Source of the DNA: Gloeomargarita sp. SRBZ-1_bins_9
Lineage (GTDB): Bacteria; Cyanobacteriota; Cyanobacteriia; Gloeomargaritales; Gloeomargaritaceae
NCBI GenBank assembly: GCA_039794565.1
Contig: JAUQVX010000010.1
Span: 1-64,000, forward strand
DNA: 64,000 bases
Direction of reading: 5' to 3'
Below the pieces are notes generated by a model. The model saw nothing but the letters and a program-made list of their open reading frames with translations, searched no databases and was not told the DNA's origin. Both the position numbers and the translations under genes were made by a program. Each line of letters opens with the position of its first letter. The first letter of the stretch is position 1. Of the stretch, positions 27,733 to 33,419 are shown one piece after another.

Positions 27733-28375
27733 TGCCGCATTGACCCAGCCTTTAGCTGCGCTGCTGCGCTGGTGGATACGCCAACAAGTGACGCAGGCGG
27801 TTGAAGTGCAAGTGTACCTAGGAGACATGACGTCGCTGTGGCGGTCGGGTCGTCTACCCCTTATCCAGGTGAGTGCCCACAACGTCATTTACCGCCAAGT
27901 TCACTTACAGCAGGTGGTACTCCAAGCTCAAAATATCCAATTTCATTGGCCTTTTTTCCGTCAATACAAAGAACCCTTTATCGAACCAATTGCTGTTGCC
28001 ATCACGGCCACCATCACCGAACAAAACGTGAATCAATCCCTGTCTGTATTGCAGGACTTTTTACAGCCCTATCTCCAGGAATTGACCGGTCAGAGGTCCA
28101 GAATTCAGGAACTCCATATCCGCGAGCAATATATAGATTGGTGCTTGGCCAACGGTCACACCTACAGGACCCAAGTAACTTTGGTTTCACCTTGGGAATT
28201 GGAACTGCAAACCCTGGCGCCAGAACCGAAAACCACCCGGATTTCCCTGGGTTCCGATGGGCAAATAGATAAGTTGAATATCGAAACGGGAACTATCTAT
28301 CTATCGGGGCAATTAGTCATCCGACCAGCAGGGGCACCAGCAGGGTCACAAAGTAATAGGCCAGGGGAGCCGTAA
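27707..28375 (+). CDS. DUF2993 (LmeA-like) lipid-binding protein
   Basis: A 222-residue protein of the DUF2993/LmeA type common in cyanobacteria: an N-terminal helix-rich segment (LAALLRWWIRQQVTQAVEVQV), then repeating beta strands with NVNQSLS in the middle. Such proteins are thought to bind phospholipid at the membrane or periplasm face. No signal peptide is obvious. The start is uncertain: ATG 27707 overlaps the preceding gene by 26 bp, whereas TTG 27722 has GGAG 8 nt upstream. The 3' end overlaps cdsA by 59 bp, the longest such overlap in the window. Confidence 0.7.
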   Translation: MEWGPLPANAALTQPLAALLRWWIRQQVTQAVEVQVYLGDMTSLWRSGRLPLIQVSAHNVIYRQVHLQQVVLQAQNIQFHWPFFRQYKEPFIEPIAVAITATITEQNVNQSLSVLQDFLQPYLQELTGQRSRIQELHIREQYIDWCLANGHTYRTQVTLVSPWELELQTLAPEPKTTRISLGSDGQIDKLNIETGTIYLSGQLVIRPAGAPAGSQSNRPGEP

Positions 28376-29195
28376 AGACATAGCTATCGGCGCGGTCCAA
28401 AATCCCCCCATGCCCCGGAATAAACTGCCCGGAATCTTTGACGCCGGCATCCCGCTTCATCATGGATTCCGTCAAATCCCCCAGCAAACTGGTGACCCCC
28501 GTCATCCAGCCCAACACCAAACCTAAGCCCACCGGCCAGGCTAATTGCACTGCCCCCATGGCTCCTACTCCCATACTGGCCAGTACCCCAAAAACGGCCC
28601 CCTCCACTGTCTTTCTGGGACTGATTTCCGAAAGTTTCGTCTTGCCAAAGGCCCGTCCGAAAAAAAAGGCGCCAATGTCCGCTGCCCAAATACAGCCAAA
28701 GGCCAGCAACGTCACCTTTAAGCCCAAGGGCCACTCACCGCCGTCCGGCCAAAAGCCCAACAAAGGCAAGTTGCTGTAGGCGCTTTGCTCCACCCCCCGT
28801 AACCGCACCCAAAAACTGGGCAGATATCCTCCGTAAAACAACCCCAAAATTGATGTGGCAATGTCGGCAATGGTGGCCAACTTCGGCTGAAAGAGCAAAT
28901 AAAAACAAATCCAGCTCCCACCAATCGGTAATACGGCGTCGGCTAAATTGGGAGCGATGGTGGCTGTGATGATTAATAGTTGGCTCACTACCAGGGTAGT
29001 TTTCGTCGCTGGGAGGATGCCTTTCCGTTGCGCCAAGGCAAAGTACTCCCGCTGTCCCCAAAACACCAAAGCTGCTACTCCCGCACTAAAATACCAGCCC
29101 CCCAAAATCACCCACACTAGCGCCAGCAGCAAGGCCACGGCACCGCTGATAATTCGCACTCCTGGAATGGATGCCCAGCGAGACCAGTCCTTCAA
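28317..29195 (-). CDS. cdsA: phosphatidate cytidylyltransferase CdsA
   Basis: A 292-residue integral membrane enzyme forming CDP-diacylglycerol from phosphatidate and CTP, the branch point to phosphatidylglycerol, the only phospholipid of cyanobacterial thylakoids. About seven membrane helices. The family signature is clear near the C-terminus: MMKRDAGVKDSGQFIPGHGG followed by ILDRADS. Start is TTG 29195, with AAGGTGAG about 8 nt upstream inside the 3' end of the MCP gene, whose stop is 1 bp away; the two are probably coupled. Confidence 0.92.
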   Translation of the reverse strand: MKDWSRWASIPGVRIISGAVALLLALVWVILGGWYFSAGVAALVFWGQREYFALAQRKGILPATKTTLVVSQLLIITATIAPNLADAVLPIGGSWICFYLLFQPKLATIADIATSILGLFYGGYLPSFWVRLRGVEQSAYSNLPLLGFWPDGGEWPLGLKVTLLAFGCIWAADIGAFFFGRAFGKTKLSEISPRKTVEGAVFGVLASMGVGAMGAVQLAWPVGLGLVLGWMTGVTSLLGDLTESMMKRDAGVKDSGQFIPGHGGILDRADSYVFTAPLAYYFVTLLVPLLVG

Positions 29196-29196
29196 C

Positions 29197-32100
29197 CTAG
29201 CTCACCTTGAATTGGGCCACATTTTTCTGTAATTCCGCCGCCACCCCCACCAAATGGGTAAAGGAATCCGCCACCGCTACCGACTGCTGGGACGTATGAT
29301 TGGCAATCTGGGCCACGTCCTCCATCGTACGACTGACCACCGCGGAGGTTTCCGACTGGGCCTGGGCCGCCTGGGCGATTTCCGCCACCAAACTGCTGAT
29401 TTGGGCTGTAACTTCGGCAATGCGACTCAGTTTCTGGCGCGCCTCAGCCACCAGTTGCGTCCCCACTACCACCTGCTCCGTCCCCGCCTCCATCGCCGCC
29501 ACCACCTCATTGGTTTCCGCCTGGATTTCCTCCACCAGTTGCTCGATTTCCCCAGTAGCGTTAGCGGATTGCTGGGCCAGGGAGCGTACCTCCTCCGCCA
29601 CCACCGCAAACCCGCGTCCCTCTTCCCCCGCCCGCGCCGCCTCAATGGCCGCATTCAACGCCAGCAGGTTGGTCTGGGCGGCAAAGTTACTGATGAGACT
29701 CACCACCCGGGAGATTTTTTGAGAAGCCTCGCCCAGGCGCTTGACCTTCTTAGCCGTGGCCGCCACCGTCTCGCGAATCGCTGAAATCCCCGCTACAGTA
29801 CGGTTCATGGCCTCGTCCCCCTCCCGGACCGTTTCGTTGGCCCGCTGCACCTGCAACTCGGCGCTGTGGGCATTAGCCGCCACCTGCTGAATCGACCGCA
29901 CCATCTGCTGGATTTGGGCTAGAGCAGCTTGGATGGCCTCCGCCTGCCGGGCCGCCTCCGACGACAGGGCATGCACAGAAGGCGCACTGTGTTGGGCTGT
30001 GTCAGTCACTGCCTGGGCCGCCACCTGCACCTGTTGCACCAGTTGCTGCAGGCTTTCGATGATGGCGTTGAAAAAGTCGGCGACCGTCCCCATTTCCCCC
30101 GACGTCACCCGCGCTCGCACCGTCAAATCCCCCTGGAAGGCACCCTCAATATCCGCCAGGAATTGCGCCAATTGCCCCTGGAGAGCTTCCCGCTGCTGCC
30201 GCTGCTCCTGGGAGACCGCCTCCGCCTGTTGCCGCGCCTGCTCCACCTGCTCCAGCAAAATGGCCTGGTCCAGGGCATAGCCCACCTGCAGCGCCACCTG
30301 CCGCAGCAAATCAACCTCTAACGCCGTCCACTGACGCGGACCGCTGCACTGATGGGCAATCAGCAACCCCAGCAACTTCCCCTCCGCCAGGATCGGGGCC
30401 ACCAAGTTCGCCTTCACCGCAAAGGGTTCTAACTGTTGCAGGTGACAGGGCGTCAACCCGGCTTGGTAAATGTCCGGCGTCGCCTGCACCCGTCCCTGAC
30501 GGTACTTCTCCACATAGCCCTCGGCAAAGCAGGGGTCGTCAATCTGCGCTCCTAAGGCTTTGGGCCAACCACCCGTTACGGCCTCCGCCACCACCGTCCC
30601 TTGCCAGTTCTCGTCAAACAGATACACAATGCACCGGTCGCACTGTAGGGCTTGGCGCACCTCCTGCACCGCCGTGTTGTAGATGGCCGAGCGCTGTAGA
30701 CTCTGGCGAATTTTCGACGTGATGGCATTGATGCGTTGGGCCTGGGCCGCCGCCAATTCCTGCTGCCGTCGCAGGGTCGCCTGTTCCTCCAGGGCCACCG
30801 CCTGGTCCAGGGCATAGCCCACCTGCAGCGCCACCTGCCGCATCAGGTCAATCTCCAACGCCGTCCACTGGCGGGGACTGTCGCACTGGTGGGCAATCAA
30901 CAACCCAAACAGCTTATTCCCCAGCAAAATCGGCGCGACTAAGTTGGCCTTGACCCCAAACGGCTCCAGTTGCTGCAAATGACAAGGTGTCAAGCCGGCT
31001 TGGTCAATATCTGGTGTAGCTTGCACCCGCCCCTGCTGGTACTTCTCCACATAGCCCTGGGCAAAGCAAGGATCGTGAATCTGCGCCCCCAAAGCCGGCG
31101 GATACCCAGGCGTCACCGCCTCCGCCACCACCGTCCCCTGCCAGTTCTCGTCGAACAAATACACAATACACCGGTCGCACCGCAGGGCCTGGCGCACCTC
31201 CTGCACCGTCGTCTCGTAAATCCGTTGCCGCTCCAGGGACTCCCGAATCCTAGACGTAATGCGGTTGAGCAACTGCTCCTGCTCCGCCTTGGCCCTTTGC
31301 TGCGCCAGGAGATTGGCCTGGTCCAGGGCAAACCCCACTTGCAGCGCCACCTGCCGCATCAGCTCAATTTCCCCCTCTTGCCACTGGCGCGGACCACTGC
31401 ACTGGTGGGCAATCAGCAAGCCAAAAAGTTTATTCCCCAGCAAAATCGGCGCCACCAGATTGGCCTTCACGGCAAAGGGTTCCAACTGCTGGAGATGACA
31501 CGCCGTCAATCCTGCCCGATAAATATCCGGTGTAGCTTGCACCCGCCCCTGCTGGTACTTCTCCACATACCCTTCGGCAAAACAGGGGTCATAAATCTGC
31601 GCCCCCAACGCCCGCGGCCATCCCGGCGCCACCGACTCCGCCACAATCCGTCCCTGCCATTGCTCATCAAACAAATACACCACGCAGCGGTCGCTTTCCA
31701 GGGCCTCCCGCATTTGCTGCACCGTCGTCTGGAAAATCGCCTGCTGGTCCAAAGTCTGGCGAATGCGCAGGGTGATGTCATTGAGCAACTGAGCCAGGTT
31801 GGCCTTGGTCTCCTGTTCCCGCCGCAACTGCTCCTGCCGCTCCAGGGCAATGGCCTGGTCCAGGGCAAACCCCATCTGCAGCGCCACCTGACGGATCAGT
31901 TCAATTTCGTGGGGCTGCCACTGGCGGGGACCCCTGCACTGGTGGGCAATCAACAACCCCAGCAACTTCCCCTCCGCCAAAATCGGCGCCACCAAGTTGG
32001 CCTTGACCTGGAACGGCTCCAACTGCTGCAAATGGCACGCCGTCAACCCCGCCTGATAGATATCCGGCGTCGCCTGCACCCGTCCCTGACGGTACTTCTC

Positions 32101-33333
32101 CACATACCCTTCGGCAAAGCAGGGGTCATGAATTTGCGCCCCCAGCGCCCGGGGAAACCCATTGGCCACCGATTCGGCCACCACCGTCCCCTGCCACTGC
32201 TCATCGAACAAATAGACAATGCAGCGGTCCGCCTGCAGGGCCTGGCGCAACTCCCGCACGGTGGTGTCGTAAATGCGTTGACGGTCCAGGGACTCCCGCA
32301 TCTTGACAATCAGGTGATTGAGCAGGGCCGCCTGGGTCATCTGCACCTGTTGCGCCTGCCACAACCGCGCCTGCTCCAGGGCCACCCCCAGTTGCAAAGC
32401 CACCTGGGCCAAAAACTCCTTTTCCCCTTGGGTCCAAGCCCGGGGTTCGCCGCACTGGTGGGCAATCAGCAACCCCAACAACTTCCCCTCCACCAGGATC
32501 GGCGTCACCAGATTGGCCTTGACCTGGAACTGCTCCAGGATGCGCACATGACAGTCTTGGAGACCCGCCTGGTGGATATCCGCCACCGCCTGCACCCGTC
32601 CTGCCTGGTACTGGGCCAGATACCCCCCCCGAAAACAAGGGTCATCAATTTTTTCCTGCAGCGCCGACCGCCAGCCCGACCCGACGGATTCCGCCACCAC
32701 CGTCCCCACCCCCTCGGCATCCAACTCATAGACCACCACCCGGCCGCAACGCAACACCCGCCGGGCCTCTTGTACCACCTGGTCCATGATCGCCTGGGGG
32801 TCATGGGTCTGGCGCAATCGCTGGATCAAATCCCGCAGCGCCTGGGCCTGCTCCTGCTCCGCCTGTTGTTGCTCCGCCATCTGTTGCAGGTGGGCCGCCA
32901 GGGCGTTAAGTTCCTGGGCCATCCCCACCCAGCCATCGCCACCGGTTAGCGCCACCCGCGCCTGCCAATCCCCCCGCCGCAACCGCTGCACCATCTGCAC
33001 CAACAACCAGGCCGGTTGAGTCAAGCCCTGCCCCAAGAGCGCCGCCGCCGCCAAGCCCAACACCAGGCCCACCACCGCTGCCGCCCCACCTGCCCACATC
33101 TGCCGTTGTTCCCCAGGCGCAGGGCTGGCCGAATTCACCGCCTGGTAGGTCACCGCACCCCCCACAGCCCCCGCCAACCCAGCCAACACCGCCAGCGTGA
33201 CCACTTGCCGCGCCAAAGCTCGAGTAAGATTCCCTGCCGGTGCAGGCTCCACCACCGGGGCTGCCCCAGCCTGGGTTGGCGCTGCAGGAGGCATCTCGAC
33301 AAGCGTGGGGCGGGGGGACGTCTGAGTCATCGC
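29197..33333 (-). CDS. methyl-accepting taxis receptor with five DXCF-type cyanobacteriochrome GAF domains (PixJ-like)
   Basis: A photoreceptor-type MCP. Residue numbers here count from an upstream in-frame GTG at 33414; subtract 27 for the ATG 33333, preferred because AAGGAA lies upstream. Two membrane helices (about 66-92 and 106-128) flank a tiny periplasmic loop. A HAMP-like segment (about 130-185) precedes five GAF domains (about 196-352, 368-524, 547-703, 719-875, 898-1054). Each GAF has a DPCF cysteine (260, 432, 611, 783, 962) and a Cys-His cysteine (288, 460, 639, 811, 990), always 28 apart, as in TePixJ (Cys494/Cys522). A second HAMP (about 1080-1135) and an MCP signalling hairpin follow. 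Known family members bind phycoviolobilin and steer phototaxis. No pix or che operon is adjacent; ftsH3 lies upstream. Confidence 0.9.
30259..32829 (-). repeat. five tandem GAF-encoding DNA repeats
   Basis: Five copies of a roughly 0.5 kb coding unit with strong nucleotide similarity (for example CACCCGTCCCTGACGGTACT-type stretches recur). Spacing alternates 172 and 179 codons, so every second copy is offset by 351 codons. Copies 2 and 5 share AEGKLLGLL and YRQGRV; copies 3 and 4 share LGNKLFGLL and YQQGRV, a mosaic pattern. Confidence 0.85.
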
Positions 33334-33419
33334 TGTTCCTTGGCCGGTCACCTTTTCCATCTTGCCCCGCTGTTGGCTCCACCGCCCAACCCTTGTAACG
33401 TTTTGTTGCGACACGGGAA

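Follow-up and report, generated by a model that had tools for sequence, protein, structure and literature searches.

The window, a stretch of 64,000 nucleotides from Gloeomargarita sp. SRBZ-1_bins_9 (contig JAUQVX010000010.1), carries a pixJ-like gene on its minus strand. Reading of the open frames gave a single frame at 29197-33414, which comprises 1405 codons and encodes 1405 aa from a GTG. When an ATG at 33330 was used as the start, the receptor had 1377 aa (29197..33330, minus strand). In an alignment with six congeners, this ATG coincided with the N-termini of the congeners (MTRTSPRP/MTRTPTKP), and an AAGGA motif was located upstream. These results suggested that the ATG at 33330 is most likely the true start, with the GTG at 33414 as the alternative. 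The Pfam search detected five copies of the GAF domain (E 9e-114), together with an MCP signalling domain (E 3e-44). From the N- to the C-terminus, the protein consisted of two transmembrane (TM) segments, a HAMP-like region, five tandem GAFs, a HAMP-like segment, and the MCP signalling domain, all encoded on the minus strand. TM segment 1 (residues 43-61, 33148..33204), which is conserved in the congeners, and TM segment 2 (residues 81-100, 33031..33090) were assigned by hydropathy. The HAMP-like region (residues 101-154, 32869..33030) was assigned by position and motif, its Pfam HAMP score (E 0.37, 11.6 bits) being below the cut-off. A second putative HAMP-like segment (GDLTVRARV..., 30046..30159) was read by eye between GAF5 and the MCP domain and had no Pfam match. 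The MCP signalling domain (Pfam MCPsignal) was located at 29305..29847. The receptor thus combined the two TM segments, HAMP, bilin GAFs, and MCP tip of a PixJ receptor, with a HAMP match that is weak and below the Pfam cut-off. Pfam, the motifs, and the PDB matches together confirmed that the locus contains one taxis-type ORF with five tandem DXCF GAFs and an MCP domain, as the preliminary description had proposed.

The gene directly downstream of the receptor is cdsA (CTP_transf_1, 28317..29195, minus strand), which is not a chemotaxis gene and starts about 2 bp after the receptor gene. It directly follows the receptor gene in the congeners as well, and because the pair was retained in all seven genomes of the genus, pixJ and cdsA are probably co-transcribed. 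The ftsH gene preceded the receptor gene in the window and in the closest relatives only. With ftsH and cdsA as neighbours, the receptor gene was located outside any che operon; the che genes were found on other contigs, and the CheY, CheW, and CheA genes of the pixG/H/I/L type were not encoded with it. The genome of the window has a size of 2.22 Mb in 21 contigs and is 99.98% complete, and Gloeomargarita sp. SKYG116 is a relative at 89% identity. A full-length five-GAF protein was present in all six other sampled Gloeomargarita genomes at 78-88% identity. In the sister genome G007, at least four dual-Cys GAFs were found, together with a fifth that was truncated at the contig end.

Bilin-site residues of the five GAF domains

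The five GAFs were located in tandem on the minus strand, and their Cys pairs are given here in ATG numbering: GAF1 at 32344..32859 (Cys232/260, codons 32635-32637 and 32551-32553), GAF2 at 31828..32343 (Cys404/432, codons 32119-32121 and 32035-32037), GAF3 at 31291..31806 (Cys583/611, codons 31582-31584 and 31498-31500), GAF4 at 30775..31290 (Cys755/783, codons 31066-31068 and 30982-30984), and GAF5 at 30238..30753 (Cys934/962, codons 30529-30531 and 30445-30447). As stated before, every GAF contained DPCF and a Cys-His motif with the two cysteines 28 apart; the earlier numbering (260/288, 432/460, 611/639, 783/811, and 962/990) is correct for the GTG start at 33414 and does not apply to an ORF ending at 33333. 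The best PDB matches of the receptor were TePixJ GAF chains (E 2e-50), with the GAF3 region as the best-scoring part, and each of the five GAFs was homologous to TePixJ far beyond chance. The AlphaFold2 model was superposed by Foldseek on the TePixJ GAF (4glq/6p58), and the prediction matched with an rmsd of about 1.0 Å over 143 residues. The Asp-X-Cys-Phe motif, the Cys-His 28 residues on, and the TePixJ-like predicted fold of DXCF dual-Cys GAFs were therefore all found. TePixJ of Thermosynechococcus, whose GAF is of the blue/green PVB type, shares the DPCF/CH spacing of 28, the MCP domain, and this predicted fold at about 1 Å, but has a single DXCF GAF (locus L023, 941 aa ORF) compared with five in the Gloeomargarita receptor. 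The earlier statement that TePixJ has far fewer bilin GAFs was therefore correct.

To evaluate the individual residues, we compared the five GAFs across seven Gloeomargarita genomes. The equivalents of TePixJ D492, P493, C494, F495, R507, C522, and H523 were invariant in 35 of 35 GAFs, which argues that all five look competent for bilin binding. GAF2-5 were mutually 72-79% identical and had the same residue at every key site tested, whereas GAF1 was only 52-53% identical to them. GAF1 also differed throughout the genus by an Ile at the Gln526 position and a Val or Ile at the Leu524 position. In TePixJ, Q526 and D492 are located where the chromophore slides upon photoexcitation (PMC6955287), so GAF1 may be tuned differently from GAF2-5. 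The predicted set of up to five blue/green switches was supported by the conservation of all five sites, but the divergence of GAF1 indicated that five identical switches would perhaps be too simple a picture.

Two other readings of the array have to be considered, and both appear doubtful. The first is that only some GAFs are photoactive, and that the rest, with GAF1 as the first candidate, serve as structural spacers or dimerisation units. Synechocystis PixJ1/TaxD1, which shares the two TM segments, GAFs, and MCP domain with the receptor and functions in phototaxis (PMC5812497), would be a precedent; it differs in that it has two GAFs, carries bilin on the second only (PMC5812497), and is encoded in the tax1 operon. 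The 52-53% identity of GAF1, its lack of Gln526, and the long branch of the window's copy in the tree (0.36) are consistent with this possibility. However, spacers would be expected to lose bilin-site residues, and all ten cysteines as well as D492, R507, and H523 were invariant in the 35 GAFs, GAF1 included. The second, held with similar reserve, is a spectrally mixed array, in which the photoproduct colour varies among the GAFs (blue/green, blue/teal, and GAF1 different again) and the receptor compares colours like PtxD. PtxD of Nostoc punctiforme (NpF2164) is likewise an MCP with a long tandem bilin-GAF array; it has seven GAFs, is involved in phototaxis, and photoconverts between six colours (PMC5812497). 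The fixed differences of GAF1 (I instead of Q at 526, and V or I instead of L at 524) would fit such a receptor, but the high identity of GAF2-5 and their shared key residues count against it. Moreover, PtxD is a polychromatic mix of GAF types and is linked to the ptx che cluster, whereas all five Gloeomargarita GAFs belong to the DXCF dual-Cys class. The reading that all five GAFs are bilin-binding DXCF switches, GAF1 possibly with different tuning, is the one adopted below.

In addition, further cyanobacteriochrome-like GAFs were observed elsewhere in the same genome at L048 (G000:C11:21043) and L049 (G000:C4:155543), the latter with DPCF and Cys-His.

Inter-GAF spacing and origin of the arrays

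The spacing between GAFs was measured from the conserved HQ of one GAF to the conserved FD of the next. The values were 84, 91, 84, and 91 in the window receptor, and 84, 91, 91, and 91 in G007. Among 335 tandem cyanobacteriochrome-type GAF pairs, a spacing of 84 was found in 241, 91 in 58, and 98 in 3, and multiples of seven accounted for 303 of the 335. After clustering at 50% identity, multiples of seven accounted for 45 of 55 (84 in 33, 91 in 11, and 98 in 1), and since the sequences are related, these tallies do not represent independent events. For the GAF2-GAF4 monomer, AlphaFold2 (mean pLDDT 87.6, pTM 0.53) predicted a continuous helix of 51 residues from GAF2 to GAF3 (31762..31914, minus strand; spacing 91 = 84+7) and one of 44 residues from GAF3 to GAF4 (31246..31377, minus strand; spacing 84), so that the two predicted linker helices differ by one heptad. 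PDB 6OAP was aligned at equal length across GAF3, the linker, and GAF4 (query 309-518 vs chain 96-305). It belongs to a dual-sensor histidine kinase (6OAP, 6OAQ, and 6OB8) whose tandem GAFs also lie along one long helix and for which logic-OR signal integration has been reported (PMC8584932); that protein senses light and phosphorylation and, unlike the Gloeomargarita receptor, is not an MCP. The heptad spacing, the continuous predicted helices, and the equal-length 6OAP alignment suggested that a helical spine most likely carries the states of the five predicted blue/green switches to the single MCP tip. We do not present the heptad spacing as a new discovery, because the regular spacing of tandem cyanobacteriochrome GAFs and its coiled-coil reading were stated earlier (PMC6798134).

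Previous studies have reported one to five GAFs in PixJ proteins (PMC13383048), and four reports describe PixJ_Se of Synechococcus elongatus UTEX 3055 as an experimentally studied blue/green receptor for bidirectional phototaxis (PMC10781874, PMC12652804, PMC9239245, and PMC9090330). The novelty implied by the preliminary description could thus not be maintained: PixJ_Se already has the same layout and has been studied experimentally, which largely amounts to prior characterisation of this layout, and PtxD has an even longer array. The search of cyanobacterial genomes for MCPs with at least five DXCF GAFs also indicated that the Gloeomargarita layout is not unique, since, in the S. elongatus-like genomes, five were found in a protein of G037 and six in one of G018. 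G037, which we take to be S. elongatus, encodes its five dual-Cys GAF protein in a row with PATAN-CheY, CheY, CheW, and CheA. PixJ_Se reportedly has five GAFs (Yang et al. 2018, PNAS), a number consistent with the range of one to five in PixJ proteins and with the G037 protein. At the S. elongatus-like locus L065, the order was PATAN-CheY, CheY, CheW, five-GAF PixJ, CheA (PixL), and a CheW-like ORF. PixJ_Se (Synpcc7942_0858) and the Gloeomargarita receptor share the TM segments, tandem DXCF GAFs, and MCP domain, and the latter likewise has five DXCF GAFs in one MCP. They differ in that the two proteins are about 52% identical, underwent separate GAF expansion, and are spaced at 84 throughout (as in the S. 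elongatus-like proteins generally) vs 84/91/84/91; moreover, PixJ_Se lies in a six-gene pix/che operon, whereas the Gloeomargarita gene is an orphan beside cdsA.

The GAF trees placed the S. elongatus copies in one clade beside TePixJ, and Gloeomargarita GAF2-5 grouped with G007. In the AU tests, a clade of the first GAFs of Gloeomargarita and S. elongatus was rejected (p 0.005), as was a clade of the last GAFs (p 2e-43). Inheritance of the array position by position from a five-GAF ancestor shared with S. elongatus was thereby rejected, and this rejection of positional orthology indicates that the two long arrays arose separately, by in-place duplication. Across the seven Gloeomargarita genomes, the GAFs grouped by position (GAF5 was unresolved as a single clade in the careful tree), from which it follows that the array is older than the sampled genus; for the same reason, concerted evolution within Gloeomargarita was unsupported. 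The five Gloeomargarita GAFs as an exclusive clade were marginally rejected (p 0.042), and with G007 added the grouping was not rejected (p 0.18). MCPs with at least four dual-Cys GAFs were found in Gloeomargarita, G007, two S. elongatus-like genomes, and G364, among the best-scoring loci read from 390 genomes of the class, a sample rather than a census. The five-GAF layout was already known from S. elongatus, and its independent origin in Gloeomargarita is the added point. A five-GAF PixJ is accordingly not peculiar to S. elongatus but has arisen separately, with every cysteine kept across the sampled Gloeomargarita genus, and two independent natural arrays are available for comparison, which makes the question of why a receptor should carry many copies of one sensor testable.

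Two further arrays were observed. The S. elongatus-like PixJ at L064:3842-8683 has six dual-Cys DXCF GAFs, of which the third and fourth are almost the same in sequence, suggesting a recent in-place duplication. L179 (G364:C119), from a different cyanobacterial family, is an MCP ORF of 1470 aa whose GAF pattern, DnDDDD, represents a further long DXCF array.

Candidate signalling partner and proposed function

The genome of the window encodes one ferredoxin-dependent bilin reductase, seven CheW-domain matches including three CheA proteins, PATAN/DUF4388 proteins, and type IV pilus ATPases (PilB/PilT-type). Two of the three CheA genes adjoin other MCPs, and the third is solitary. The latter (G000:C8:16501-20541, L067:8501-12541) has no che neighbour and encodes a protein of 1347 aa in which Hpt, kinase, CheW, and receiver domains were present. 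With the S. elongatus-like PixL as the query, this CheA was the best match (483 bits), closely followed by the C3 CheA (416 bits). Its solitary location and this match make the unlinked PixL-like CheA at G000:C8 a likely candidate for the partner of the receptor, a guess insofar as the receptor gene lies apart from any che operon. No match to CheR or CheB was found in the 99.98% complete Gloeomargarita genome, so that the pair of enzymes that goes with a classical methylation-adapting MCP was missing; the S. elongatus control genome was likewise without both. Methylation-based adaptation of the receptor is therefore unlikely, and "methyl-accepting" serves here purely as the name of the family. 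How such receptors adapt is a question to which both the orphan location and the missing CheR and CheB are relevant.

Based on its domains, the receptor very likely functions in phototaxis or a related light response, and we consider it quite probable that it is a phototaxis receptor of the PixJ type, anchored in the membrane and equipped with five DXCF cyanobacteriochrome GAFs; its bilin, colours, partner, and behaviour are what we infer. In the proposed mechanism, the two TM helices and the HAMP-like region would anchor a cytoplasmic rod of five GAFs. Each GAF would most likely bind phycocyanobilin via the Cys-His cysteine and isomerise it to phycoviolobilin, and the DPCF cysteine would be added to or released from C10 of the bilin, so that the dark state would absorb blue light and the photoproduct green or teal light. 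The GAFs would be arranged on one continuous helical spine, and because the inter-GAF lengths vary by whole heptads only, a twist or tilt could transmit the state of each GAF in register to the HAMP-like segment and MCP tip. The tip may then control the autophosphorylation of a CheA, probably the C8 protein, which would act through CheY/PATAN regulators on type IV pili. The output would be set by the blue/green ratio across the five bilins, presumably with no adaptation by methylation. The path-averaging or light-integration role suggested earlier for the five GAFs is speculation.

That the receptor instead acts outside directional phototaxis, for example in photophobic accumulation or in surface/biofilm control via another CheA system, is unlikely. 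Three observations would favour such a role: a linked pix operon is lacking, PixJ of Phormidium regulates photophobotaxis negatively (PMC13383048), and in Nostoc, phototaxis was reported not to depend on PixJ (PMC9090330). Against it, a receptor with this domain layout governs directional phototaxis in S. elongatus (PMC10781874 and PMC12652804). Returning to the PixJ-type phototaxis receptor, we offer one broader idea as a long shot. Among unicellular cyanobacteria capable of phototaxis, arrays of at least five same-colour DXCF GAFs might have evolved several times, each time independently, because identical sensors in heptad phase on one helical spine might provide gain or a threshold beyond that of a single GAF (multi-photon counting at the light-focus spot), with the copy number tuned by duplication of a register-preserving unit.

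On the contig of the solitary CheA, a protein of 428 aa (L068:6645-7928, G000:C8) was also observed whose match to the MCP signalling domain is weak and partial and in which no sensor domain was recognised; it is a cytoplasmic or degenerate receptor.
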